Shown here one piece after another: positions 24,953 to 43,198 of a stretch of 64,000 nucleotides of DNA; within the stretch, counting starts at the first letter, position 1; each line of letters opens with the position of its first letter. This stretch comes from an uncultured Nodularia sp. Lineage in GTDB: Bacteria > Cyanobacteriota > Cyanobacteriia > Cyanobacteriales > Nostocaceae. The notes beneath the pieces were generated by a model. That model saw only the letters and a list, made by a program, of their open reading frames with translations. It ran no database searches and was not told the DNA's origin. The DNA lies in assembly GCA_903911355.1 (NCBI GenBank), contig CAIWDD010000070.1:1-64000 (forward strand), in the 5' to 3' direction. The position numbers and the translations under genes were made by a program.

Positions 24953-27106
24953 TTACCACATAGCAGAATTTTTTAATAAAGCAGTACATTGGCTTTCTAT
25001 AATTACACAAATACTGCTCATGGCTTGCTGGTAGCTGTGTGTATCCTCTTGTTCCAAGGATAGTTTGGCAGCGGTTTGTAAGTCTTCAATAGCCTTGAGG
25101 TTATTTCGATCAGAGTCTTGCCCAGCATACTGTGTAAGTTCATAGCGAATCATCCCTCGTTTGAGATAGACTTTCGCCAAGTTACCATTGATTTTTAGGG
25201 CTTGGTTGAAGTCAGCGATTACCTGTTGATATTCGGGAATAAAGTTGCTGCTAAATTGTGCCATTCTATAGCGGATTTCCCCCCGATGAAAATAAGCTTC
25301 TGCTTTCGATGCATTCAGTCGAATCGCCTGGGTAAAATCAAGAATCGCTTTTTGATAATCTTGCACAGATTGACCGCTATATCTAGCCATTTCCGAACGG
25401 ACAATACCCCTTTTAATATAGGCTTCTATTTCTTGATCGTTCAGCGATAAAGCTTGACTAAAATCAGCGATCGCTAGGTTATATTCGCGATCAGGATCGT
25501 GGCTATATTCAGCCAGCATATAACGAACATTGCCTCGGTGGATAAAAGCTTTAACTTCTTGAGGGTTAATCTGCAAAGCTTGATTATAGTCTGTCAGAGC
25601 GCCTTCATAATCCCTCAATTCATAGCGGGCATTACCTCTGTGAACATAAGCACTAGCATTTGTTGCTGCCTGTTCTATAGCTTCGCTAAAGTGTTGTACT
25701 GCTTTGTGATAATCTTTTGCTTGGTAAGCAGCATGACCCTGTTGATAGTAATCGGCGAAAGTCAGAGTATCTGGCTGGGGTTGAGGACGAGTTATCAAAG
25801 TTTGTTGAGTGTAGGCATTTTGAGAAACATAAGGACGAGTAAATTTAATTGCTACGTCTAAATACCCCAACACACCAAAACCCACTAAACACAAAATAGC
25901 GGGATAAAACTTTGTGTTTTTTTGACGTTGATAAACAGAATACTTAGGTAACTGCCAATGATTTATTTGGGATTGCGGCCTTACTGGTTGTGGAGAACGT
26001 GGACGCTGGGCGTAACGCCTTTTAGGTACAAATCGTGGGCGCAGATGTTCGTGATTTTCTACTGCTCTAAGTGATGGAAATGGATCACGTCCACCTAAGC
26101 GCAAAGCACGTTTACACCAAGGACAACTATCTAAATGGTGATTATAGCGATGCTGGGGATTAGCAGTACAAGTAATCAGGCTATCTTCTGCTTCAGCTAA
26201 GACTGATAACCAAGTTTGGGCGTTGGGGCGCAGATGAGGGTGATCGTGACCATCTTCAAAACAACGTAAAAACAATTCTTGCAACTTGGGATGCAGCATT
26301 TCCCAAGGGGGTGCGATGGGGGTAGGGAGATAAGGTACTTGACGCTTTTGACTATAAGTGAAATGTCCCGCAGCAATCCGGGCTTCGTAGGGTGGTGGCT
26401 CAGAAACACCTTGAAAGATTCCCGAAAAGGGGTGAGTACCTTCCATTAAAAGTTGAAAAATCAACACCGCCAGCCCAAAGGAATCATGGGTGACTTTGCG
26501 ATCGTGTTGAGCAAAAATTTTATTCTGTAGTTCTGGTGGGGTAAACTCTGGTTTACCTACAGGACAGCGATAAACAACATTCTGATCAGGATCGTACACT
26601 TGGAACGAGTCAGTATCAACCAAGGTCACCAGCGCTGTATCGCTAACGAGAATATTTGACTCATTGACGTCACCAACGCAATATCCACTATTATGCAAAG
26701 CTGCAAAAGCCGCTGCCAAATTACGAGCAGTGCGTAGCAGATACTGATAATTGAATAAGGGACAGTGTTCGCGACGAGTTCTGGGATTGTAAAAGTCGAT
26801 AATGGGGCGCATCCCACGAATGCGAGGCATCAAAAAGCCGATGATGCGATTGTCTTGATCTTTTGACCGTAATAAATCCAGCGGCCAAGCAATGGAAATA
26901 TGCCCCAAGCTAGCTGTAGGGTTTTCTGGAGGGTTGGCCAGCATCGCCTGGAGTTTGTTGGCGTGGGCAACTGTTGGTTTGTGATAAACTTTAGCGACTA
27001 AATCACCACAGGAGGGTACTGTATAGATACAAGCTTCACCGCCACGCCCCAAACTCACGCTGAGGTTGATAATTTCTTGTTTGGGAAAACAACGTAAGAC
27101 CTGCAT
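24953..27106 (-). CDS. Protein kinase with zinc finger and TPR repeats (TerY-P triad)
   Basis: The 717-residue protein has an N-terminal kinase-like domain: a glycine loop SLGRGGEACIY (about 18-28), lysine in LVAKVY (K39), catalytic-loop D146 and N151 in VGDVNESNILV, and D164/D166 in VDTDSF replacing the canonical DFG. The histidine of HRD is absent, yet essential D, N and K are present, so it may be active. A treble-clef/zinc-ribbon-like HLDSCPWCKRAL (C328, C331) follows, then one membrane helix at about 401-420, then about six TPRs (450-700), four with loop insertions of about ten residues. Such kinases occur with a VWA and a PP2C gene, as here. It is the last gene of a three-gene operon (gap 75 bp). 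Confidence 0.85.
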   Translation of the reverse strand: MQVLRCFPKQEIINLSVSLGRGGEACIYTVPSCGDLVAKVYHKPTVAHANKLQAMLANPPENPTASLGHISIAWPLDLLRSKDQDNRIIGFLMPRIRGMRPIIDFYNPRTRREHCPLFNYQYLLRTARNLAAAFAALHNSGYCVGDVNESNILVSDTALVTLVDTDSFQVYDPDQNVVYRCPVGKPEFTPPELQNKIFAQHDRKVTHDSFGLAVLIFQLLMEGTHPFSGIFQGVSEPPPYEARIAAGHFTYSQKRQVPYLPTPIAPPWEMLHPKLQELFLRCFEDGHDHPHLRPNAQTWLSVLAEAEDSLITCTANPQHRYNHHLDSCPWCKRALRLGGRDPFPSLRAVENHEHLRPRFVPKRRYAQRPRSPQPVRPQSQINHWQLPKYSVYQRQKNTKFYPAILCLVGFGVLGYLDVAIKFTRPYVSQNAYTQQTLITRPQPQPDTLTFADYYQQGHAAYQAKDYHKAVQHFSEAIEQAATNASAYVHRGNARYELRDYEGALTDYNQALQINPQEVKAFIHRGNVRYMLAEYSHDPDREYNLAIADFSQALSLNDQEIEAYIKRGIVRSEMARYSGQSVQDYQKAILDFTQAIRLNASKAEAYFHRGEIRYRMAQFSSNFIPEYQQVIADFNQALKINGNLAKVYLKRGMIRYELTQYAGQDSDRNNLKAIEDLQTAAKLSLEQEDTHSYQQAMSSICVIIESQCTALLKNSAMW

Positions 27107-27181
27107 GATAAAATTACTATGAATGGGGTTATATAAAATACAAATCTCGCAAAATCACCACAACGTTGCTCAGATAAAAGA

Positions 27182-27988
27182 TCATTGAGCACTCCTAAGA
27201 CCTGCTAAAATCAGGGTCAGGTCATCATCAGTACGTTGGGTAATCCGTTCAGAACCTAAAAACCTCACCAACTGTTCCTTGGCTGTTGTCTGATCTTCGG
27301 CATTCTCCACAAAGTCGAATAAGGGAAAAAAGAAGGGTTTATGAGGTTCACCCACCAGCATATTTAAGGCCAGCATTTGTAGTCCATCGGTAAGGACGCC
27401 AATATTAACTATGTTTTCACGCCATAATCTGATTTGCGCTGTATCTAAGGCATGAGGGGAAGTTAAAAAAGTCGTCTCGTTGATGTATTCTCCATGATCA
27501 GGTCTTGTTAGTGCCATTAAGTTACCCATGCGATCCTTGGCCACTGCTAAACCATCACCAATTTGTACCACTGCGACCAGATCCGGGGTAGCAACCATAA
27601 TAATTAAGGTAGTTGCTAAATCTTGAGGCTGTTTGCTGCCAGATCTTGCTGCATCCTCTACCGCTTTTTTGGCTGCTAGTAAGGCTTCATTCAATAGCGA
27701 TCGCACAATTGCATCATCTGCAAGGGAATCTCTAGTAATTTCTTTGATAGCAAGGGTTTCTATTGCTTTTTCTACAGCTACCATTGCTCCCACTTTTCCC
27801 TGGCTGGCAGAACCTGCACCATCAGCAGCCGCAGTGAGCAACACATTACCTGGTAGTAGCTGCCAGTGGTGAGCATCTTGACACAGCTGCTTATTTCTGA
27901 TGTGGCTTGTACCGCATACAGATGCAGCCACTACTTGCCAATGAGATATCTGTTTCAATGTTGTATTCATAGATTTTTTTTCAGGCAT
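27182..27988 (-). CDS. PP2C-family protein phosphatase (TerY-P triad)
   Basis: The 268-residue protein is a PP2C-type serine/threonine phosphatase. Metal-site motifs are visible: an NKQLCQDAHHW start (aspartate in the first motif), AAADGAGSASQGKVGA, VVQIGDGLAVA and LTDGLQ, ending with RTDDDLTLIL. All four metal-ligand aspartate positions appear kept. It should reverse phosphorylation by the kinase two genes away or on the VWA partner. It sits 51 bp after the VWA gene and 75 bp before the kinase gene. Start is ATG at 27988; an internal ATG at 27970 is also possible. Confidence 0.88.
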   Translation of the reverse strand: MPEKKSMNTTLKQISHWQVVAASVCGTSHIRNKQLCQDAHHWQLLPGNVLLTAAADGAGSASQGKVGAMVAVEKAIETLAIKEITRDSLADDAIVRSLLNEALLAAKKAVEDAARSGSKQPQDLATTLIIMVATPDLVAVVQIGDGLAVAKDRMGNLMALTRPDHGEYINETTFLTSPHALDTAQIRLWRENIVNIGVLTDGLQMLALNMLVGEPHKPFFFPLFDFVENAEDQTTAKEQLVRFLGSERITQRTDDDLTLILAGLRSAQ

Positions 27989-28039
27989 AGCTCGTGTGAA
28001 TGTAAGCTACGATACCTACGGTAAGCTACGCTAACCCGA

Positions 28040-28741
28040 TTAAAGAGTACCCCAGCCAATGGGTGGTAGTGCTACCTGTTCATCTACCTGAGAATGGGAA
28101 ACTGCTGACATACTGGCCGACAACCAAACAAACATCTCAATAAAGTTAAGTCCTTTGAGTTTGAGCGGTGTTCGCACTGCTAATTGATTTAAGCGCATCA
28201 TGTTAGCGTTTTCTACACCTACTGTGAAGAATGCAACTCGTTTATTAGCTTCATCTCCTTGTAGGCGTTGCGCTGCTTGCTCTATGAGATGGTCTAATTC
28301 ACCCTGTGGTTCTCCATCTGTAATCATGAACACCCAAGGACGATAATAAGCAATGCCATTGGCACGATACAAAGATTTACGATCTTCCACCATGTCCAAT
28401 GCTTTATGAATTCCCGCCCCCATAGTCGTTAGTCCCTGGGCTGTCAAAATGGGCGGGTTAAATTGATCGGCTGTGACAAAATCCTGGACTATATTCACAT
28501 TAGTATCAAAAGTGATGATTGCCACTTCAACCCTTCTAGATGCTAAGGAATTTTTCAGCAATTCATCCTTCAAACTCAGCAAGCCCTGATTTAAAGCTTC
28601 TATAGGATCTCCTTGCATTGATCCTGATGTATCTAGCAATAGCACACAAGGACAACGTGGTTCAGGATTTTCAGCAAATTCGACTATTTCATCGAGTTGT
28701 AAGCTTTCATGCATAACGGTTTTTGTTATGTTGTACGTCAC
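28040..28741 (-). CDS. terY: VWA-domain protein, TerY-like
   Basis: The 233-residue protein is a single von Willebrand A domain with a complete MIDAS: DTSGSMQG near residue 37, a threonine in GLTTMGAG and the aspartate in ITDGEPQG. TerY proteins of tellurite/phage-stress clusters have this form and occur with PP2C and kinase genes as the TerY-P triad. Metal-dependent binding to partner proteins is the expected role. I keep the GTG start at 28741 because AAAGGAG lies 9 bases upstream; an internal ATG at 28714 is less favoured. It is first in the operon. Confidence 0.87.
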   Translation of the reverse strand: MTYNITKTVMHESLQLDEIVEFAENPEPRCPCVLLLDTSGSMQGDPIEALNQGLLSLKDELLKNSLASRRVEVAIITFDTNVNIVQDFVTADQFNPPILTAQGLTTMGAGIHKALDMVEDRKSLYRANGIAYYRPWVFMITDGEPQGELDHLIEQAAQRLQGDEANKRVAFFTVGVENANMMRLNQLAVRTPLKLKGLNFIEMFVWLSASMSAVSHSQVDEQVALPPIGWGTL

Positions 28742-31533: not shown

Positions 31534-33477
31534 ATGCCTGTAGAAACTAATAATAATTACAAAAGACCAGATAAAGCACCAAAACCTAGGCAATTGGGCG
31601 GGAGTTTGCTGATTCTATTGACTTTTTTATTGCTGCTTAACTTGGTTGTTCCCAGTTTGTTTGGGCAGCGACAAGCTCAAGTTCCCTACAGTGAGTTTAT
31701 CGCGCAGGTGCAAAATAATCAAGTGGAGCAGGCGGTTGTGGGTAGCGATCGCATTGAATATACCATGAAAACCCAAACTGCCGGAGGTGAAACTGTAAAA
31801 CAGGTATTCACCACCACGCCAGTAGCCATCGATTTAGATTTACCCAAAATTCTGCGGGAGCATGATGTCGAATTTACAGCACCACCACCATCCCAAAATG
31901 CCTGGATTGGTACTTTACTCAGTTGGATTGCACCCCCATTAATTTTCTTTGGGATTTGGGCTTTTGTCATCGGTCGTCAAGGTAGCGGTCCGGCTGCATT
32001 GACAGTAGGTAAAAGCAAAGCCCGCATCTATTCCGAAGGCATCACAGGTGTACAATTTAGTGATGTTGCCGGTGTAGATGAAGCTAAGGCAGAACTAGAA
32101 GAAATCATTGATTTTCTCAAAAATGCCGGTAAATACACCAGACTGGGGGCAAAAATTCCTAAAGGCGTATTGTTGGTGGGACCTCCAGGAACGGGTAAAA
32201 CCATGCTAGCTAAAGCCGTCGCGGGTGAAGCTGGTGTCCCGTTTTTCAGTATTTCTGGCTCAGAATTTATTGAATTATTTGTGGGCGTGGGTGCTGCCCG
32301 GGTGCGTGACTTGTTCGACCAAGCCAAACAGCAAGCCCCTTGTATTGTGTTTATTGACGAATTAGACGCACTGGGTAAGTCTCGTGGAAGTGCTGGGCCG
32401 ATTATGGGCGGTAATGATGAGCGTGAACAAACTCTCAACCAGCTACTGAGTGAAATGGATGGTTTTGACGCTAACACAGGGGTGATTATCATTGCAGCGA
32501 CCAACCGTCCCGAAGTCATTGACCCCGCATTAAGTCGTCCAGGTCGATTTGACCGTCAAGTTGTGGTTGACCGTCCTGATAAAAGCGGTCGTGAAGCTAT
32601 TCTGAATGTCCATGCGAGAAATGTGAAATTAGCTGATGATGTTGATTTATCAACTATTGCGGGTCGAACTCCTGGTTTTGCAGGAGCAGATTTAGCTAAC
32701 CTAGTCAATGAAGCTGCACTGTTAGCCGCCCGACAAAATCGCCCAGCAGTATTAATGGTAGATTTTAATGAAGCTATTGAGCGGTTGGTGGCTGGTTTAG
32801 AAAAACGTTCTCGTGTGCTGAATGAACTGGAGAAAACCACAGTAGCCTATCACGAAGTTGGTCACGCCATCATCGGTGCGTTAATGCCTGGTGCTGGTAA
32901 GGTGGAAAAAATCTCTGTTGTACCCCGTGGTGTGGGTGCTTTGGGTTACACAATTCAGATGCCCGAAGAAGACCGCTTCTTGATGATAGAAGATGAAATT
33001 CGCGGACGCATTGCTACTTTGTTGGGCGGACGCTCTGCTGAGGAAATTGTTTTTGGTAAGGTTTCCACTGGTGCTGCTGATGATATCCAGAAAGCTACTG
33101 ATTTGGCAGAACGAGCTATTACTATCTATGGGATGAGCGAGAAGTTGGGTACTGTGGCTTTTGAGAAGATTCAACAGCAGTTCCTGGAAGGTTACCCTAA
33201 TCCCCGCCGTAGTATTAGTCCCAAGGTGGCTGAAGAAATTGACCGGGAAGTGAAGGTGACTCTAGATAATGCTCATCACATCGCTTTGAGTATTTTGCAC
33301 TATAACCGCAAGTTGCTAGAGGAGACTGCACAGGCATTATTGGACAAGGAAATTCTGGAAGGTCTTCAATTGCGTGAGTTCCTTAACCAAGTTGAAGCAC
33401 CAGATGAATTGGATGAGTGGTTACGAACCGGTAAGTTATTGGCAGACAGACCATTGATGCAATCACTTCTGGTTTAA
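31534..33477 (+). CDS. ftsH: ATP-dependent zinc metalloprotease FtsH
   Basis: The 647-residue protein has two N-terminal membrane helices (about 24-43 and 126-146), a AAA+ domain with Walker A GPPGTGKT (216-223), Walker B IVFIDELD (271-278) and a second region of homology around [18 protein letters not shown] (324-341). It ends with an M41 protease whose zinc site is HEVGH (440-444). It degrades damaged membrane proteins; cyanobacteria carry several FtsH paralogs, some needed for photosystem II repair. Which paralog this is cannot be told here. AAGGAGG about 13 bases upstream supports the ATG at 31534. A terminator follows. Confidence 0.96.
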
Positions 33478-33899: not shown

Positions 33900-35690
33900 T
33901 CAGCTTCTCTGCCAAATTTTAATTGTTTGATCAAAACTCCCAGAAACTAACATCTCACCCGAATCTGTGAAGGCTAGGGATGTAACTGTATGGGTATGGC
34001 CATTAAAAGTAGCTAGCAATTGACCTGTTTCTCGATGCCACAATTTGATGCTTTGATCTGCACTACCACTGGCGATAAGTCCATCAGGACTCAGAGCAAC
34101 AGCATACACTTTATCTCTATGACCCTTGAGGGTACGAATTAATTTCCCTGTTTCCAATTGCCAAATTTTAATTGTTTGATCCCAACTACCACTGACTAGT
34201 AGTTTACCATCGGCACTGATAGTCATGGCAGAGACGATGTGAGAATGACCCGTGAGGCTGTATTGGGGTGGTGAATCTTTGAGAGTTTTCCACCCGCTGG
34301 GTTGTGAAGTCCGCCAAACTTTGATTTTGCGGTAGCTACCTGTAGCCAATATTTGCCCATCTTGACTGAAAACTAGGGAATGAGCAGCTGTATCATCTAA
34401 AGATAAGGCGATCGCTACCTGACGTTGGGTTAAATCCCAAAATAAGACTTTTCTATCATCCCCAGCCGTTGCTAACATCAGTCCATCTGGTGTAAACGCA
34501 ACGCACCGCACCATACCATTATGCTTGTGCAGAATATCGATTAAATCTAATGCGCCTACGTGCCAAATCTTCACCGTGGAATCAGCACCACCAGTAACTA
34601 AAGTTTGTCCATCTGAACTAAAGGCTAGAGAATTTACTATATCTACCCGTCCAGACACCACCCAAGGATACTCTGATAATGTCTGGATTAATTCACCCTT
34701 ACTTAAATCCCATAGCTTTGTTTCCCCATAACTACCACTTGCTAATATGGGGGAGGTTGTGCCATTGTTACACCTGGAATTAAAAGCTATACAATTAATT
34801 CCTCTAGTGTGGCCTTTCAATGTTTGCCAACATTCCCAATCACCAATTATTGCCTTTTGCGGGTGTTCTGCTGGCAAAGTTTGCACTGTTTCTACTATTA
34901 TCTGTTGTTCAACTAATGGCTGTGTGGGTTTTTTGATATTTCCTTGGGTAACTAATGATTCTAAGTACCAACTCAAACCCCCCGCATACAAGAAATGACC
35001 GGGAGTAACATACAGTTTTGGCTCCGGAAATTGAATTTGGCTCGTTGGTAAAAAACCCGCAATGATAGAATGTTTTTGGTAACAATTCATATCAGTAAAC
35101 GGATGTAATAAACAGAGAAAAACTAATACTTGATAATTCTTTAAATCATCCTGAGTAACTGACCACCTCACTTTATTTTTCTTAATACTATTAACACTTT
35201 CTCCATCAGCTGCGTGAACTTGAATACTAACATGAGGATTATTAGCCAACAGGTAGGCAAATTTGCTCTCTCCGCGCAAATTCCCCTCATCATCTAACAC
35301 CATGTTTTCCAAGGTCTCCTGTGGGATTTTTTTGACTAACTTACCCAGACATTCAGCCATCACTAACCCCACAATTTGCTCTCGGAAAAGATACTCTTGT
35401 GCTTGCTTCTGGAAGTATTCGGGAAAAGTCATTCCCCAGTCATCCGGGTCGGGATATTCCGGTGGTGTTGGTGGTGGATTTTTGGCGACAATTTCCGCTT
35501 GCTGACAGGAAAATTCGGTTATCTTCAGCAATTCCTCACAAGAGAATACTATTCTCTCACGGTGAGATGCTTTAACTTGACTTTCCAGCAAGGATAAATC
35601 ATAAGTTTTAGGTTTTTTCACACGTTGAAGGAAGTCAGCTTGTTGAGCTTTGAGTAAGCTAATCCAATCCATCTGCATTGGGTGTGACAC
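33900..35690 (-). CDS. WD40-repeat protein with novel N-terminal domain
   Basis: The 596-residue protein has a long N-terminal region (about 1-275) that I do not recognise, rich in charged residues and with a proline-rich segment near residue 72. A C-terminal beta-propeller of about seven WD40 repeats follows, each with a GH...D/W pattern, for example SADGKLLVSGSWDQTIKIW. WD40 propellers in Nostocales are often coupled to signalling or to DNA-independent scaffolds; this one sits between ftsH and the ter genes and is divergent from terB. A GTG start at 35690 is assumed; ATG codons lie five and seven codons in. Confidence 0.72.
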   Translation of the reverse strand: MSHPMQMDWISLLKAQQADFLQRVKKPKTYDLSLLESQVKASHRERIVFSCEELLKITEFSCQQAEIVAKNPPPTPPEYPDPDDWGMTFPEYFQKQAQEYLFREQIVGLVMAECLGKLVKKIPQETLENMVLDDEGNLRGESKFAYLLANNPHVSIQVHAADGESVNSIKKNKVRWSVTQDDLKNYQVLVFLCLLHPFTDMNCYQKHSIIAGFLPTSQIQFPEPKLYVTPGHFLYAGGLSWYLESLVTQGNIKKPTQPLVEQQIIVETVQTLPAEHPQKAIIGDWECWQTLKGHTRGINCIAFNSRCNNGTTSPILASGSYGETKLWDLSKGELIQTLSEYPWVVSGRVDIVNSLAFSSDGQTLVTGGADSTVKIWHVGALDLIDILHKHNGMVRCVAFTPDGLMLATAGDDRKVLFWDLTQRQVAIALSLDDTAAHSLVFSQDGQILATGSYRKIKVWRTSQPSGWKTLKDSPPQYSLTGHSHIVSAMTISADGKLLVSGSWDQTIKIWQLETGKLIRTLKGHRDKVYAVALSPDGLIASGSADQSIKLWHRETGQLLATFNGHTHTVTSLAFTDSGEMLVSGSFDQTIKIWQRS

Positions 35691-36158: not shown

Positions 36159-36602
36159 GTGACTTTTTTAAATTGGGTAAAAGAACAACAAAAAAATCTA
36201 CATGATTCTATTGTGCGGTTTAAAAACAAAGAATTCATGGATGCTATTGTTGCGGGATGCGCTTTAGTAGCAGCAGCAGATGGACATATTCATTCTAGCG
36301 AAAAACAAAAAATGGCGGGTTTTATTGCTAGAAGTGAGGAACTGCGTGTATTTGAGATGAATGATGTCATTGAGAGATTCAACTATTTTGTGAGTGGTTT
36401 TGAGTTTGACTCACATATTGGTAAAGAACAAGCACTAAAAGCTATTAGTAAGCTCAAGAATAATTCCGATGCTGCAAAATTATTGATTATAGTATGTTGT
36501 AGCATCGGTTCGGCTGATAATAATTTCGAGGAATCCGAGAAGCAAGTTGTGCGAGAAATATGTTCAAACTTATCTTTGAATCCCTTAGAGTTTCAATTAT
36601 AA
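36159..36602 (+). CDS. terB: TerB-family tellurite-resistance protein
   Basis: The 147-residue protein is an all-helical TerB domain. It has the paired acidic motifs of the family, AAADGHIHSSEKQKM (about residues 38-52) and GSADNNFEESEKQVV (about 115-129), which form a metal-binding centre. TerB proteins link Ter complexes to the membrane and to proteases. It begins with GTG at 36159; a GGAG lies about 8 bases upstream. It is the first gene of a plus-strand run of ter genes and is 109 bp before the first TerD gene. Confidence 0.85.
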   Translation: MTFLNWVKEQQKNLHDSIVRFKNKEFMDAIVAGCALVAAADGHIHSSEKQKMAGFIARSEELRVFEMNDVIERFNYFVSGFEFDSHIGKEQALKAISKLKNNSDAAKLLIIVCCSIGSADNNFEESEKQVVREICSNLSLNPLEFQL

Positions 36603-36711
36603 ACTTATTTGCACAACGTATGCAGCTAACCGAGTTAAGTATATTGTCTCATCACCAATATACATAATATTACCACTACATATTACCTGAATTATCAAGG
36701 AGTCTTGAATA

Positions 36712-37287
36712 ATGACAATTAATCTGGCTAAAGGACAACGTATTTCTCTTGAGAAAGTTTCACCGGGTCTGTCTCAAGTTTTTGTTGGTCTTGGATGGGA
36801 TGTAAAGTCTACTGATACCGGCACAGATTTTGATTTAGATGCCTCAGCTTTTCTGCTCAATTCTGATAATAAGCTCATATCTGAAGCCCATTTTATATTT
36901 TATAACAATCCTAAAAGTCCTGATGCTGATAAAGCAGTACAACATCTAGGAGATAACCTCACAGGTATAGGTGAAGGAGATGATGAGACAATCAAAGTTT
37001 CTTTGAATCAAGTACCTGATGAAGTTGAAAAAATTGCGATCGCAGTGACTATTCATGATGCAGAAAAACGCAATCAAAATTTTGGTCAAGTACAAAATGC
37101 CTATGTACGTATTGTTAATGAGCAGACACAAGAAGAAGCTGTCCGCTATGAACTTACAGAAGATTATTCCATCGAGACAGCATTGATCATGGCTGAACTT
37201 TATCGTCAAGATGGTGAGTGGCGTCTAAATGCAGTGGGATCCGGTTATCAAGGTGGTTTACAGGTGCTCCTTGATCGCTACAACTAA
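36712..37287 (+). CDS. terD: TerD-family calcium-binding stress protein (first copy)
   Basis: The 191-residue protein opens with MTINLAKGQRISLEKVSPG, the TerD start, and has the Ca2+-binding acidic loop DFDLDASAFLL (about residues 41-51), then HTIFYNN-like and DNLTGIGEGDDE segments (about 81-92) and AVGSGYQGGLQVLL at the C terminus. TerD proteins bind calcium through such loops and act in tellurite, phage and oxidative-stress tolerance. AAGGAG lies about 12 bases before the ATG. It is close to the second TerD copy and surely arose with it by duplication. Confidence 0.92.
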   Translation: MTINLAKGQRISLEKVSPGLSQVFVGLGWDVKSTDTGTDFDLDASAFLLNSDNKLISEAHFIFYNNPKSPDADKAVQHLGDNLTGIGEGDDETIKVSLNQVPDEVEKIAIAVTIHDAEKRNQNFGQVQNAYVRIVNEQTQEEAVRYELTEDYSIETALIMAELYRQDGEWRLNAVGSGYQGGLQVLLDRYN

Positions 37288-37436
37288 GTAATTCTCCAGA
37301 AGGCTAAAACCATTTTACGGGGGGAAAATTCACCATTTTCATTTACCCCAGTAAGATGATTAGCCATACCAATTCTATGAGAAGTTAGGCACTGTACTTT
37401 ATTCGTTCAAAGTTGAATTTTAGGAGACCAAAAAAA

Positions 37437-38012
37437 ATGGCGGTTACGTTAACAAAAGGACAACGCATTTCACTAGAAAAAGTTGCGCCGGGACTTACTG
37501 AGGTATTTGTTGGTTTGGGATGGGATGTGAAACCAACGGACACCGGCTATGACTTTGACCTAGACGCATCAGCTTTTCTACTCAGTAGTAACGAAAAGTT
37601 GATATCTGACAACCACTTTATTTTTTACAATAACCTGACCAGTCCAGATCCAAGCAAGTCAGTAGAACACACAGGGGATAATCTGACAGGTGCTGGTGAT
37701 GGTGATGATGAAGTCATCAAGATTAGTCTGCAAAAGGTTCCTGCTGATATTCAGAAAATTGTGATTACGGTAACTATTCATGAAGCCGGAAAACGAGGTC
37801 AAAACTTTGGTCAGGTTCAAAATGCTTTTGTTCGTATCGTTAATGCTCAGACTAACCAAGAAGTAGTTAGATACGACTTAGTTGAGGATTACTCTGTTGA
37901 AACTGCATTAATTATGGCTGAAATCTATCGTAAAGATGGAGAGTGGCGTTTAAATGCAGTTGGCTCTGGTTATCAAGGTGGCTTACAAGCATTATTAGAT
38001 CGTTATAGCTAG
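37437..38012 (+). CDS. terD: TerD-family calcium-binding stress protein (second copy)
   Basis: The 191-residue protein matches the first copy along its whole length: KGQRISLEKVAPGL, DFDLDASAFLL, DNLTGAGDGDDE and VGSGYQGGLQALL. The Ca2+-binding acidic residues are kept. I chose the ATG at 37437 because it gives exactly the length of the first copy and has AGGAG 10 bases upstream; the frame is open 8 codons further. It is followed by a third TerD gene 10 bp on and is clearly co-transcribed with it. Confidence 0.92.
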   Translation: MAVTLTKGQRISLEKVAPGLTEVFVGLGWDVKPTDTGYDFDLDASAFLLSSNEKLISDNHFIFYNNLTSPDPSKSVEHTGDNLTGAGDGDDEVIKISLQKVPADIQKIVITVTIHEAGKRGQNFGQVQNAFVRIVNAQTNQEVVRYDLVEDYSVETALIMAEIYRKDGEWRLNAVGSGYQGGLQALLDRYS

Positions 38013-38022
38013 GAGATTAGAT

Positions 38023-38625
38023 ATGGGAATTAATTTACAAAAAGGACAGAGAATTTCTCTGTCTAAGGAAGCTCCCACCCTCACCAAGTTGATGTGTGGA
38101 CTAGGCTGGGATGTAGCAAAAACATCCGGCGGTGGGTTTTTTAGTAACTTTGCAGGTGGTGCTCAGTATGATTTGGATGCTTCTGTAATTTGCCTAGATG
38201 CCAATGGTAAGTTAACCAGTAAAGAAAATATTGTCTACTTTGGGAATCTTCAGCATTCGTCAAAAGCCATCATTCATACAGGGGATAACTTAACTGGCGC
38301 AGGTGATGGGGACGATGAGGTGATTATTGTTGACTTACCTAGGATACCAATCCAGATTGCTAAATTGGTTTTCGTAATCAATATTTATGAATGCGTTCGC
38401 CGTAAACAGGACTTTAGCCAAGTTGAAAATGCTTTTGTGCGTTTAGTCAATGCAGATAATAACAAAGAACTGGCTAGATACAACCTCTCAGGTAAAGATT
38501 ATCAGGGGAGGACAGGAATGATATTGGCGGAAGTATATCGACACGATAATGAATGGAAAATGGCAGCTGTGGGCAATGGTATCACTGTCAACGGTTTAGC
38601 AGACATCATCAGGTCTTACTGTTGA
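38023..38625 (+). CDS. TerD-family protein (third, divergent copy)
   Basis: The 200-residue protein keeps the QKGQRISLSK start and the acidic loops (QYDLDASVICLD, then DNLTGAGDGDDE) but has an insertion near residue 30, a GGGFFSNFAGG glycine-rich stretch, and a shifted C terminus (GNGITVNGLADII). This resembles TerE/TerZ-type variants. AGGAG lies 6 bases before the ATG. It lies 10 bp after the second TerD copy and 20 bp before the TerA-like gene. Confidence 0.88.
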   Translation: MGINLQKGQRISLSKEAPTLTKLMCGLGWDVAKTSGGGFFSNFAGGAQYDLDASVICLDANGKLTSKENIVYFGNLQHSSKAIIHTGDNLTGAGDGDDEVIIVDLPRIPIQIAKLVFVINIYECVRRKQDFSQVENAFVRLVNADNNKELARYNLSGKDYQGRTGMILAEVYRHDNEWKMAAVGNGITVNGLADIIRSYC

Positions 38626-38645
38626 ATATCTAGGATTATACAATC

Positions 38646-39254
38646 ATGGCTATTACTCTGAAAAAAAGTGGTGATTCCCACAAAATAGACCTAAGTAAGA
38701 CAGGTGTATCTAACCAGTTAACGGTTCATGTGAACCTAAATTGGAATCAAAAATCTACTCAAAACCCTGGTCTCCTTAGCACGTTGTTTAGTACTAATAG
38801 TCCCCCTGACTTGGACTTGGGATGTATGTATGAGACGGTAGATGGTCAGAAAGGAGTCATTCAACCTTTAGGGGGAAATTTTGGTAAAAAAGATTCCCCT
38901 CCTTATATCTTTCTAGATAAAGATGACCGCACCGGAGTAGCCGCAGATGGTGAAAATATGTTTATTTACAGACCCGACACCATCAAAAGAGTAATGTTTT
39001 TCGCTTTCATTTATGAAGGTGCTCGTGATTTTAGCTCTGTGGGTGGGCGAATGTTCTTCAAAATTAGCAATGGGGAACAGATTTATTTGGAACTCAATAA
39101 CCCAGATGTGAATAAACCTTTTTGCGCGGCGGCTGTGATTAGTAATATTGGCTCTCAAATAGTAATTTTGAAAGCAGAAAAGTACTTTAGCGGTCATGAA
39201 TCAGCAGATAAAAACTACGGATTTGGCTTTAATTGGGTAGCTGGTTCTAAGTAA
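38646..39254 (+). CDS. TerA-like protein
   Basis: The 202-residue protein has the segment VHVNLNWNQKS (about residues 28-38), then DLDLGCMYET and QPLGGNFG, and DKDDRTGVAADGENMF. This fits TerA, a divergent TerD-fold member with a single calcium-binding loop. It probably assembles with the TerD proteins. It is separated from the metzincin gene by a single base, so translation is coupled. Confidence 0.75.
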   Translation: MAITLKKSGDSHKIDLSKTGVSNQLTVHVNLNWNQKSTQNPGLLSTLFSTNSPPDLDLGCMYETVDGQKGVIQPLGGNFGKKDSPPYIFLDKDDRTGVAADGENMFIYRPDTIKRVMFFAFIYEGARDFSSVGGRMFFKISNGEQIYLELNNPDVNKPFCAAAVISNIGSQIVILKAEKYFSGHESADKNYGFGFNWVAGSK

Positions 39255-39255
39255 A

Positions 39256-39963
39256 ATGTCTCTTTATGAACGTCTAAATCTGAGGAAGACAAATCCTCAG
39301 ATGAAAGTTCCGATTTGGGAACGAATTAACCTTGATAGACCTGCAAAGCTTCGCTGTCAAGGTTGTCGTTCTCGTGTTCAAACAAGTTGGCTAGTGTGTC
39401 CCTATTGTGGATGGTTAATAGCTAAAGACAATCGCGATCTTCGCCATTGTATTTTTGTTGATATTTCCAGAGTGATTCTTGACATTAAGGACAATAGCGC
39501 AATACTAGCAGTTATGACAGATACTCTTGCTAAGGTCTTTAGTGCTTTTAGGAGTGTCAATGTGTTTTTGACCTCAGAACCTCCTGATCCAACACAGTGG
39601 GGGGATAATTTCACCCATATCCATGTATTAGCTGACCAGCAACCAGTTGACTATCTGGGAATTGCTAGTTTTACTCATCAGCAAGTTACTACTATTGCTC
39701 TTGTTCGTTTAGACAAAATACTTCATGCTTCCCATGAAGCAAGTCTAAATTTGGCTCAATTATCTAACTTGATTGCTAATACTATTACCCATGAAATTGG
39801 TCATACATTGGGATTAGATCACTCTCAATTACCCACAGATGTAATGCATGATGGACTAGAACATAGGATTCACAGCTTGATACCTCCATCATTTCATGCT
39901 GAACAAATTATCTTGATGAATAACGCCATTAGAAAATATAAAAATCTGGAAACATCAGCTTAA
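39256..39963 (+). CDS. Zinc-ribbon metzincin-like metalloprotease
   Basis: The 235-residue protein joins an N-terminal zinc ribbon (C34, C37, C48, C51 in RCQGC...VCPYC) to a protease domain with HEIGHTLGLDH (179-189), the long metzincin zinc motif, and a Met-turn in TDVMHDG (Met197). I see no signal peptide, so it is probably cytoplasmic. Its coupling to the TerA-like gene (one-base gap) suggests it cleaves or processes Ter-linked proteins. Archaemetzincin- or matrixin-like are both possible. Confidence 0.82.
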   Translation: MSLYERLNLRKTNPQMKVPIWERINLDRPAKLRCQGCRSRVQTSWLVCPYCGWLIAKDNRDLRHCIFVDISRVILDIKDNSAILAVMTDTLAKVFSAFRSVNVFLTSEPPDPTQWGDNFTHIHVLADQQPVDYLGIASFTHQQVTTIALVRLDKILHASHEASLNLAQLSNLIANTITHEIGHTLGLDHSQLPTDVMHDGLEHRIHSLIPPSFHAEQIILMNNAIRKYKNLETSA

Positions 39964-40021
39964 TTTGTCTTACGAAAGTTCATAAAACGTATTTTCTTTC
40001 TACTAGATAAGGTGAAAAAAT

Positions 40022-40168
40022 ATGCAATCATTTGCAGGCTCTATAATTTTTCTATTTGGTTTATTTCTTTTCTGTGGGAATATTACTGGATTTTTTAAAA
40101 CCTTCCCTTTTGCGGGATTTATAACTATGACACTAGGAGGCGCATTGATTAAAGAAAATGAAGAATGA
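40022..40168 (+). CDS. 48-residue membrane protein in the ter cluster
   Basis: A short frame begins MQSFAGSIIFLFGLFLFCG and ends KENEE. It has one to two hydrophobic segments (about residues 4-22 and 28-42). AAGGTGA lies about 8 bases before the ATG, and no other strand offers a better frame. It is placed between the metzincin and Ca2+-ATPase genes on the same strand, which makes it a possible small regulator of the pump. I do not recognise a family. Confidence 0.6.
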   Translation: MQSFAGSIIFLFGLFLFCGNITGFFKTFPFAGFITMTLGGALIKENEE

Positions 40169-40246
40169 TCAGTAAGTATACAGGAACATATCAACTTACA
40201 TCTACCACTATCCACATTATTAAATCATACCACTTTAAATTATTCC

Positions 40247-43198
40247 ATGGACAGAACCGCTACTGATCACCTCAACAAAGTTGAATTACCATATCAAGGA
40301 TTAACTTTAGCAGAGATTAATTTCAATCGCCAAACATATGGTGTCAATGTTCTTACACCCCCGGAACGAGAGCCACTGTGGAGACTATTTTTAGAAAAAT
40401 TTGAAGATCCAGTAATTAGGATTCTGATGATTGCGGGTGCATTGGCAATTACTGTTGGGATTTTTGAAGGTGAATACGCGGAAGGTTTAGGCATTGTGAT
40501 TGCTATTTTATTGGCAACCACTCTTGCCTTTATTAATGAATATAAAGCCAATCAAGAATTTGACATTCTCAATCAAGTGTATGACGAAGTTGCTATCAAA
40601 GTTATCCGTGATGGTAACTTTAGTACCGTACCGCGTAAAGATTTAGTTGTCGGAGATATTATCTATCTAGAACAAGGGGAAGAAGTCCCGGCTGATGCAG
40701 AAGTTCTAGAACAAATTTCTCTAGAAATTGACCAGTCAAAAATTACTGGTGAGGCGGAACCAGTTAGAAAAATAACTCAAGCTGAGGCTAAAAATCACAG
40801 TATTGAAGAGGGAACCTATCCTGCTTACAAAATTTATCGCAGTACCATAGTTGAGCAAGGAAATGGTTATTTTAAAGTCACTGCCGTTGGTGATCATACA
40901 GAAATTGGGAAAGTGGCAACAGTAGTTGCAAGTGTTGACAACGAACAAGACACGCCGCTAAATCATCAACTAGAAAAACTAAGTAAACTGATCGGTGTAG
41001 TTGGTCTGGGCTTTGCTGTTGTTACTTTTGTATCGTTGCTAGTGCGCGGCTTTGTAACTGGAGAATTAAGCCTGAGTTCTCAACAGTGGTATGTTGTAGG
41101 ACTATTAATTATTAGTGTACTAGTGGTACTAAGCCGTATATGGCTACCTGTAGTTTACGACGGATTGGAGTTAGCTGGTACTGAATTTGAACAACCAAAG
41201 TGGTTAGAAAATAATAATCTCATTGATTGGCTGAAAACTTTTGGTATCGGACTGGTCATTTTCTCACTTGGGCTTACTTTAGGCTATGCTCTGGGATTAA
41301 TTCCTGAGTCTGTGAATAACTGGATACCAGGTAATGTTGCCAAGGCATTGCTACATTATTTCATGGTAGCTGTAACAATTATTGTGGTGGCCGTACCGGA
41401 AGGCTTGGCGATGAGCGTCACCCTTAGCCTTGCCTATAGTATGCGAAAAATGGCTGCTGCAAATAATTTGGTGCGTCGGATGCATGCTTGTGAAACTATT
41501 GGTTCGGCTACGGTGATTTGCTCTGATAAGACTGGTACCCTCACCCAAAATCAAATGCGGGTATATGAAGTTAATTTTCCCAGTTTGAATTCTCAATTAG
41601 TTCCACCCCAGGAAAATATGCAAGCATTAATAGCGGAGGCGATCGCTGCTAATTGCACTGCTAATTTAGAGAGAAAACCTTTAGAGGCTCCTCGTGTGAT
41701 TGGCAATGCTACAGAAGGAGCTTTACTCTTATGGCTAGATAATCAGGAAGTTGATTACATAGCTTACAATCGCAAGTTTCAGGTTAAATCCCGTATGCCT
41801 TTTTGTGGGCAGAAAAAATATATGGGTACAATGGGCACATCATCTGTAACTGGGGAAGATGTGCTTTATGTCAAGGGAGCGCCAGAGGTAATTTTAAATC
41901 GCTGTCGGCAGATTTTGACGGATCAAGGTATAGAGACCCTTGATTATCCAGAAAAGATAACTGATGCAATTAGAGAATATCAAAAGCGTGGGATGCGGGC
42001 GCTAGGCCTGGCTTACTGCAAGGCCTCACAGTATTCCCATGAGACGGATTTGGATGATATGGCTCAAGGGATGATATGGCTGGGGTTTGTAGCAATTTTA
42101 GACCCCTTGCGTCCAGAAGTATCTGATGCCATCCAAGCCTGTTTATATGCAGGTATAAATGTTAAAGTCGTTACAGGTGATAGCTCGGAGACCGCTAAAG
42201 AGATTGGGCGTCAAATAGGACTTTGGCAAGAAGATGATGACTGTAATAATGGTTATGTACATCTGACAGGCCAACAGTTTGCCGAACTAAGTGATCAGCA
42301 AGCCAGCCTTGCAGTGCAGGAATTAAAGATACTTTCTAGGGCGCGACCACTGGATAAACTGCGCCTAGTGAAACTATTACAGGAAAATGGTCAGGTGGTA
42401 GCCGTTACCGGTGATGGAACAAACGATGCAGCTGCTCTTAAGCAAGCTCAAGTAGGTTTAGCGATGGGTAGCGGGACTGCGATCGCTAAAGAAGCAAGCG
42501 ACATTATTCTCCTGGATGACTCTTTCCGCAGTATTGTCAATGCAGTTGTTTGGGGGCGTTCACTTTATCAGAATATCCAACGGTTCATTCTGTTTCAATT
42601 AACCATTAACGTTGTCGCCTTGGGAATTGCTTTAGTTGGGCCATTTATTGGCGTAGCCCTACCTCTAACTGTCACTCAAATGCTCTGGGTGAATTTGATT
42701 ATGGATACTTTTGCGGCTTTGGCTTTGGCCACAGAACCACCTAATGGGATTGTGATGAAGCAAGCTCCTCGTAATCCAGAAGCCTTTATTGTCAGCACTG
42801 CAATGGCAAAGAGTATTTTAGCTACGGGTTTAGCTTTTTTAATTTTTTCCATTGGTTTCTTATATCACATCCGGGAAGATGGAAATATTACTGCTTATGA
42901 GCTTTCTCTGTTCTTCGCTGTGTTTGTCATGTTACAATTCTGGAATTTGTTTAATGCTCGATGCTTGGGATTAACTCAGTCTGCCTTTACAGGGTTGTCT
43001 AGGAATAAAGCATTTGTGGCGATCGCTATCACTATTTTTGTGGGACAGATATTGATTATTCAGTTTGGTGGTAGCATCTTTAGAACAATACCTTTGTCTT
43101 TCATGGACTGGGTGCGTGTAGTTTTGGGCACATCGATAGTGCTTGTGATTGGTGAACTTTGGCGTTTAATGAGTTCGCTACATTCTAAGCTGAGGTAG
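40247..43198 (+). CDS. P-type Ca2+-ATPase (PMCA-like) with an extra membrane insertion
   Basis: The 983-residue protein is a P2-type pump. The actuator motif ITGEAEPV is at 166-173, the PEGLA motif of the fourth core membrane helix is at 384-388, and the phosphorylated aspartate D427 lies in SDKTGTLT. The hinge GDGTNDAAALKQAQVG is present further on. About 95 residues (272-366) lie between the third and fourth core helices, far more than usual, with two extra hydrophobic segments (about 281-303 and 329-352). It should move calcium out of the cytoplasm or into a compartment. It is the last gene in the ter cluster, 78 bp after the small membrane protein. Confidence 0.92.
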   Translation: MDRTATDHLNKVELPYQGLTLAEINFNRQTYGVNVLTPPEREPLWRLFLEKFEDPVIRILMIAGALAITVGIFEGEYAEGLGIVIAILLATTLAFINEYKANQEFDILNQVYDEVAIKVIRDGNFSTVPRKDLVVGDIIYLEQGEEVPADAEVLEQISLEIDQSKITGEAEPVRKITQAEAKNHSIEEGTYPAYKIYRSTIVEQGNGYFKVTAVGDHTEIGKVATVVASVDNEQDTPLNHQLEKLSKLIGVVGLGFAVVTFVSLLVRGFVTGELSLSSQQWYVVGLLIISVLVVLSRIWLPVVYDGLELAGTEFEQPKWLENNNLIDWLKTFGIGLVIFSLGLTLGYALGLIPESVNNWIPGNVAKALLHYFMVAVTIIVVAVPEGLAMSVTLSLAYSMRKMAAANNLVRRMHACETIGSATVICSDKTGTLTQNQMRVYEVNFPSLNSQLVPPQENMQALIAEAIAANCTANLERKPLEAPRVIGNATEGALLLWLDNQEVDYIAYNRKFQVKSRMPFCGQKKYMGTMGTSSVTGEDVLYVKGAPEVILNRCRQILTDQGIETLDYPEKITDAIREYQKRGMRALGLAYCKASQYSHETDLDDMAQGMIWLGFVAILDPLRPEVSDAIQACLYAGINVKVVTGDSSETAKEIGRQIGLWQEDDDCNNGYVHLTGQQFAELSDQQASLAVQELKILSRARPLDKLRLVKLLQENGQVVAVTGDGTNDAAALKQAQVGLAMGSGTAIAKEASDIILLDDSFRSIVNAVVWGRSLYQNIQRFILFQLTINVVALGIALVGPFIGVALPLTVTQMLWVNLIMDTFAALALATEPPNGIVMKQAPRNPEAFIVSTAMAKSILATGLAFLIFSIGFLYHIREDGNITAYELSLFFAVFVMLQFWNLFNARCLGLTQSAFTGLSRNKAFVAIAITIFVGQILIIQFGGSIFRTIPLSFMDWVRVVLGTSIVLVIGELWRLMSSLHSKLR

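Follow-up and report, generated by a model that had tools for sequence, protein, structure and literature searches.

Tellurite-resistance ter operons follow a layout of the terZABCDEF type, and archaemetzincins carry a cysteine pattern after their active site. Here we describe a run of eight genes, all on the + strand (36159-43198), that brings Ter proteins together with a metzincin protease and a PMCA-type Ca2+-transporting ATPase in a window of 64,000 nucleotides from an uncultured Nodularia sp. of the Nostocaceae (contig CAIWDD010000070.1, positions 1 to 64,000). Judged from sequence comparisons, the stable unit in such loci is TerD plus a dedicated metzincin, to which a Ca2+ pump outside the core has been added repeatedly. 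We read the whole run as a cyanobacterial Ter-type stress module in which TerB, a TerA-like protein, one more TerD (the third) and a PMCA-type pump that exports Ca2+ join this TerD + metzincin core, with a Ca2+ signal that would work as outlined below; we regard this reading as evenly balanced between right and wrong. It builds on gene content, on a conserved arrangement and spacing of the genes, on the finding that pump and TerD are repeatedly linked and co-occur, and on the Ca2+ sites, the protease motif and the predicted protease fold. The genes of the run, at their coordinates in the list of open reading frames (ORFs), are as follows.

36159..36602, + strand: TerB, 147 aa, GTG start; PF05099 E 7e-20, solved TerB 2jxu E 1e-32
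36712..37287, + strand: TerD copy 1, 191 aa; PF02342 E 4e-81, ten Ca2+-site positions kept
37437..38012, + strand: TerD copy 2, 191 aa from ATG 37437; PF02342 E 1e-82, Ca2+ sites kept
38023..38625, + strand: TerD copy 3, 200 aa, loop-insertion form; PF02342 E 9e-74, Ca2+ sites kept
38646..39254, + strand: TerA-like protein, 202 aa, perhaps of the TerD superfamily; no Pfam or NCBIfam match
39256..39963, + strand: metzincin, 235 aa; duplicated N-terminal motif, CxxC...CxxC ribbon, HExxHxxGxxH, Met 8 residues on
40022..40168, + strand: 48-aa hydrophobic protein, membrane-type by eye, accessory; homologue in locus L027, 79%
40247..43198, + strand: PMCA-type (IIB) Ca2+-transporting P-type ATPase, 983 aa; TIGR01517 681 bits

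An earlier note on this DNA, made from the letters and their translations, had proposed a run of this make-up with core gaps of 1, 10 and 20 base pairs (bp). The ORFs, their strand and their identities (TerB, three TerD, metzincin, Ca2+-ATPase) hold by coordinates and by Pfam/NCBIfam matches, and the core gaps were measured as 10, 20 and 1 bp from TerD copy 2 through the metzincin. Since the gaps along the whole run are, in order, 109, 125, 10, 20, 1, 58 and 78 bp, tight packing applies only to TerD2-TerD3-TerA-metzincin. The listed ORF of TerD copy 2 opens with TTG at 37413; homologues align from residue 9 of this longer ORF, and the start is probably ATG 37437. Terminator-like sites on the + strand were absent from the gaps of the run (two were found, both inside the pump gene), and its 20 promoter-like sites represent no enrichment over a shuffle mean of 23.2.

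The core linkage was followed in relatives by a profile-guided scan of a genome collection of 84,980 species, which gave 53 metzincin loci; the scan was seeded by two peptide patterns and misses any relative that lacks them. (L numbers denote loci from contig scans, G numbers sampled genomes of the family or order sample.) With the plasmid record excluded, 27 loci hold an intact metzincin and are all cyanobacterial by title; left out were L058-L076 (non-cyanobacterial) and L046, L051, L052 and L054-L057 (fused or broken metzincin). A TerD gene, or a TerF gene holding a TerD domain, lies 0-802 bp upstream of the metzincin on the same strand in 26 of the 27, with TerA in between in five of these 26 loci. 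The exception, L028, is a 4.9-kb contig where only the last 63 TerA residues stand upstream of the metzincin. Two TerDs followed by the metzincin is the commonest arrangement, and the TerD2-TerD3-TerA-metzincin gaps of 10, 20-21 and 1 bp recur in L024, L026, L027 and L030. TerF-like proteins (TerD + vWA, PF10138 in the one member scanned) are encoded between TerD and metzincin in four loci (L034, L037, L038, L039) and after the pump in two (L024, L026). TerB is found on the opposite strand, past the metzincin or what remains of it, in L036, L052, L054 and L055. Among the seven loci with a fused or broken metzincin TerD is retained in L052 only, which suggests that loss of TerD and loss of the metzincin tend to go together. 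Every one of the 17 order-sample genomes with a metzincin match, full or partial, carries TerD (G048, G061 and G108 being partial; G007, G013 and G063, with E 7e-5 to 6e-4, were dropped from the 20 matched). TerA occurs in four of 145 family genomes, each time between TerD3 and metzincin in a pump-bearing locus. Downstream of the metzincin in L032, L033 and L053, which have no pump there, we noted a small protein that, read by eye, has pairs of CxxC and a stretch of membrane type and resembles LysM at its C-terminus.

The metzincin ORF (39256-39963) yields weak family matches: Matrixin at 3e-5, just above the cut-off, an archaemetzincin model at 1e-6, far below its cut-off, and a double zinc ribbon at E 0.0017, below the cut-off. 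Its domain order is two copies of a short motif, the CxxC...CxxC ribbon and a metzincin domain with HEIGHTLGLDH. This zinc site, of the form HExxHxxGxxH, is invariant in an alignment of 14 sequences drawn from the order-sample matches and including the window's (A1) and invariant or kept in at least 90% in an alignment of 27 that includes a ribbon-less Candidatus Brocadia protein (A2); the same is true of the four ribbon cysteines, and the Met-turn residue M197, 8 residues past the third His, is invariant in both. The duplicated motif, [YWF][DEQ]R[LI][NDG][LF], occurs in 27 of the 30 metzincin-family members of the loci set (the window's protein, a piece of 158 aa and the Brocadia protein are counted among the 30), twice in 21 of them, and in none of the 514 other ORFs of the metzincin loci, with the proviso that it was defined from this same family. 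An AlphaFold2 model (predicted local distance difference test, pLDDT, 77) falls to 51-56 over the first 30 residues and below 50 at 194-201 around the Met, so that it gives no reliable Met position. The predicted structure has a metzincin fold: VIA-align gave Z 11.3 to the archaemetzincins 3lmc (root-mean-square deviation 3.0 over 140 residues) and 2x7m, and about 11 to adamalysins. Inspection by eye, without a prediction program, shows no signal peptide, and the protein would be a cytosolic zinc protease.

A phage or plasmid gene was considered and rejected as an explanation for the metzincin: one scan of IMG/VR viral contigs returned no relative (24 pattern matches, 0 confirmed), and 72,556 plasmid records held a single match. 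In that match (L046 5546-13535, Calothrix sp. NIES-4101 plasmid3) the ribbon and protease part sits in frame at the end of a 1686-aa DUF3854 ORF, after which comes the pump; no TerD match was found in the 20.6 kb read. The Brocadia contig (L058 613-1242) encodes the ribbon-less relative, 38% identical over 160 residues, near an ORF that reads by eye like a primase/replicative helicase; there is no match to the window's ter genes there.

Membership in the Ter systems is indicated by three PF02342 matches at E 9e-74 or better and by the TerB match (PF05099 7e-20; 2jxu 1e-32), and the three TerD matches of the host genome (3.97 Mb, 136 contigs) all lie in this run. A report on Klebsiella TerD (PMC8779313) lists the residues of both Ca2+ sites, ten positions, and all ten are kept in each of the three TerDs, in line with the acidic Ca2+-binding loops that the earlier note had read from the sequence. 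TerD copy 3 matches the TerD structures 3ibz (E 1.5e-49) and 2kxt (E 5.9e-48). The TerA-like protein found no match in Pfam and NCBIfam scans. Its low-confidence AlphaFold2 model (pLDDT 61) has as best Foldseek match 9a6r_B, SCP2 (E 1.5e-4), which we take to be a TerD-family protein; a comparison of its profile with that of TerD gave no support for this family (hhalign probability 1.5%). Against solved structures, the TerA profile finds just a carbonic anhydrase (E 0.004, weak pieces) and a nanobody, and the TerD profile finds 2kxt, 3ibz, 2qz7, 2qng and a weak unrelated match, the SCP2 entry not being among them. In Nostoc linckia z4 (L035 8753-10000), TerD and TerA matches share one frame in a single 415-aa ORF directly before the metzincin, possibly a TerD-TerA fusion. 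TerC is indeed absent from the window, as had been claimed, but the genome encodes one on contig C32, away from the window's contig C70 and hence not in the same operon; absence of TerC from the window therefore sets the run apart from a classic ter operon only weakly.

The pump scores 681 bits with TIGR01517 (PMCA-type Ca2+-ATPase; curated cut-off 507), its best solved relatives are plant ACA8 (8qmp) and PMCA1 (6a69), and the PEGL and WVNLIMD stretches are kept. It is the next gene after the metzincin, on the same strand and 28-428 bp on, in eight of the 27 intact loci, and a pump also stands behind the metzincin in the plasmid locus L046. In the family sample (145 genomes), where the metzincin occurs in 14 genomes and a full-length pump match in six, all six pumps lie directly behind the metzincin (about 60-280 bp, same strand); this tie has a Fisher p of 2.6e-7, uncorrected for kinship, and one of the six is the plasmid case G235. 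Left out of the six were G154 (partial) and G206 (broken remnant). The G206 remnant (L114) comes from another genus of the family and shares about 92% identity with the window's pump gene.

The link between pump and TerD extends to genomes in which the two are apart. In the order sample (148 genomes) pumps occur at 36 places in 35 genomes; 30 of these places have a readable locus, and the flanks of the other six are known through TerD positions alone. Of the 35 pump genomes 34 carry TerD, versus 54 of the 113 others (p 1.5e-8); counted by genus, the figures are 23/23 with the pump and 26/58 without (p 6e-7). A control P-type ATPase, KdpB, shows no such tie (TerD in 38 of 72 KdpB genomes, p 0.13). 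In G025, the sole pump genome in which the TerD profile finds nothing, the gene directly behind the pump is TerA-like (L104 4552-5118). In a pump tree of 40 rows, 14 are linked, i.e. beside TerD, a TerA-like gene or the metzincin, and starred branches force three changes, a number that none of 500 shuffles matched or undercut. The linked pumps occupy three places: a group of 11, all 11 linked, the pair Xenococcus/G068, and G025. The tree was built by a quick method, so that its stars deserve less trust; it dropped the duplicates G179, G251 and G235 (= L026, L030, L046) and did not use the two-piece pump of L028, L113 or L114. Ter-linked pumps in three separate tree places support a link between Ca2+ and Ter beyond one genome.

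Several results weigh against the pump as a part of the module. No pump adjoins 19 of the 27 intact metzincins, and at just three of the 36 pump places in the order sample is there a TerD gene within 5 kb. These three are in the window, in G134 and in G068, where the order is TerD-TerD-pump without an adjoining metzincin (L087). Metzincin and pump are 149-428 bp apart in seven of the eight pump-bearing loci (28 bp in L048), so the pump may have a promoter of its own. The pump of L028 is in two pieces, and in G154, a genome with no metzincin match, the pump is matched only in part (residues 4-593, 55%). TerA before the metzincin occurs without a pump in L035 and G048, both outside the family sample. 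In the metzincin tree the pump label needs three changes, with all 11 pump-linked rows in one starred half together with six unlinked ones, and one pump gain plus losses can explain this pattern (L041 was excluded, and the order-sample metzincins are represented by L006-L009 only). Further, the co-occurrence counts treat genomes as independent, with kinship uncorrected, and a genome was taken to lack the pump after an initial look at no more than five scored candidates.

These points bear most directly on the explanation that the ter-metzincin block is a real module and the pump merely its neighbour, which chance has fixed in a single lineage and in a few more. The missing pumps, the 33 of 36 order-sample places not within 5 kb of TerD and the wider, variable gap before the pump all speak for it; the three tree places, with the main linked group linked throughout, the co-occurrence of pump and TerD even when unlinked, set against the negative KdpB control, and the joint presence of metzincin and pump on the Calothrix NIES-4101 plasmid speak against it. 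We consider chance neighbourhood unlikely, though it deserves to be taken seriously. The earlier note's idea of one joint module, expected to be linked in relatives, is accordingly borne out for TerD upstream of the metzincin (26/27) and for family pumps behind the metzincin (6/6), but not as a general companionship of the pump with either.

A further explanation sees in the run a Ter conflict or anti-invader module, in which TerD and TerB would sense a nucleotide-like signal, the metzincin would be the effector and the pump would support membrane ion balance. According to some authors, TerD may sense derivatives of nucleotides (PMC7159879, PMC7824862), a view that also counts against Ca2+ as the signal, and a role in conflict with invaders is a published view of Ter systems (PMC7824862). 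TerF in related loci (TerD + vWA, PF10138, from the single scanned member) fits this explanation, as does the patchy spread: the metzincin is missing from the only other sampled genome of the genus. On the other side, a PADLOC scan of eight window proteins, among them six of the eight of the run (TerD copies 2 and 3 excluded), gave no match for those six and only weak kinase matches, for the kinase of a triad upstream of the run, and the single IMG/VR viral-contig scan brought up no relative. We therefore find an anti-invader role improbable. Least probable is a metal-tolerance island, with an ATPase for the export of a divalent ion other than Ca2+ (Mn2+, for example) and Ter proteins that handle the exported metal: family assignment by itself leaves the ion unfixed, but the best matches are PMCA-type Ca2+ pumps, well over the family cut-off, with PEGL and WVNLIMD kept.

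Returning to the Ter-type stress module, the repeated recruitment of the pump and the kept Ca2+ sites make Ca2+ the best guess for what it handles, and a calcium-related stress function shared by Ter proteins, protease and pump is plausible. Stress would raise cytosolic Ca2+ and load the TerD proteins; the loaded TerDs might then assemble at the membrane with TerB, TerA and the TerC encoded elsewhere. Through its zinc ribbon and the short motif duplicated at its N-terminus, the metzincin could be drawn to this assembly, and it would cleave some target; the pump would end the Ca2+ signal and so reset the system. Ca2+ as the signal, formation of a complex, the location, recruitment, activity and target of the protease, transcription as an operon and the order of events are all things that we infer. 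A sharper and rather doubtful version would be a Ca2+-switched cytosolic protease: Ca2+-loaded TerDs would recruit and activate the ribbon metzincin in stress, and a dedicated PMCA-type pump would set and end the signal, in logic (not descent) like calpain with the plasma-membrane Ca2+ pump. The attachment of a TerD set to one protease (26/27), and repeatedly to a Ca2+ pump, offers a concrete link between Ca2+ binding by TerD and Ca2+ homeostasis, with a cytosolic protease as a possible output of a TerD/Ca2+ system; the cluster thereby bears on what Ter proteins do outside tellurite selection.

The 48-residue membrane protein, which had been counted as part of the module, is present as an ORF that is hydrophobic and looks coding from its codon-position pattern, but it is not a conserved part. 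Its one good homologue is an ORF at the equivalent place in Nostoc mirabile (L027, 79%), from which it differs by 10/6/19 changes at the three codon positions (17 silent versus 10 changed of 47 codons). A good match was found in one of 145 family genomes, namely the window's own; the others hold seven matches at E 0.02-0.1 only, three of them without internal stops. With one good homologue and none in the 144 other family genomes, the protein was rejected as a conserved module member and is a rare, accessory passenger.

Upstream of the run, on the - strand (24953-28741), lie a vWA protein (28040-28741), a PP2C phosphatase (27182-27988) and a kinase-TPR protein (24953-27106, kinase below the Pfam cut-off), about 7.4 kb from terB with other genes between. 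This arrangement resembles a TerY-type phosphorylation triad. The 53 loci, which reach at most 10 kb from the metzincin where the window's triad is 10.5-14.3 kb away, gave no match to the window's vWA and PP2C proteins and weak kinase matches (23-29%) in four. A WD40-repeat protein with about 280 residues before the repeats (33900-35690, - strand) stands between FtsH (31534-33477) and the ter run.

A full-text literature search for TerD with metzincin, TerB and a P-type ATPase returned nothing, and the literature searched, which did not cover the 2012 Ter survey (doi 10.1039/c2mb25239b), holds no description of a ribbon metzincin and a Ca2+ pump joined to ter genes; we do not claim absence from print. 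Ter systems, metzincins and PMCA-type pumps are known kinds, and it is the joining of a ribbon metzincin and a Ca2+ pump to ter genes that would be new. With terZABCDEF-type operons the run shares TerB, TerD and a TerA-like protein in one run, and TerF in related loci; it differs in that TerC lies outside and a metzincin is added, together with a Ca2+ pump in some lineages. The metzincin resembles archaemetzincins (M54) and matrixins/adamalysins (M10/M12) in its predicted fold (Z about 11 to archaemetzincin and adamalysin), its HExxHxxGxxH and the following Met, but it has no signal or pro-segment by eye, bears an N-terminal zinc ribbon and a duplicated short motif, and lacks the archaemetzincin cysteine pattern. 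The pump is like the PMCA-type Ca2+-ATPases (plant ACA8, PMCA1) in family score and core motifs, and unlike them it is a bacterial gene in a ter cluster. The TerD-trypsin fusion of Pseudomonas syringae (PMC2605481) is a serine protease, one fused protein and a single case in a survey table; what it has in common with the run described here is a protease coupled to TerD.

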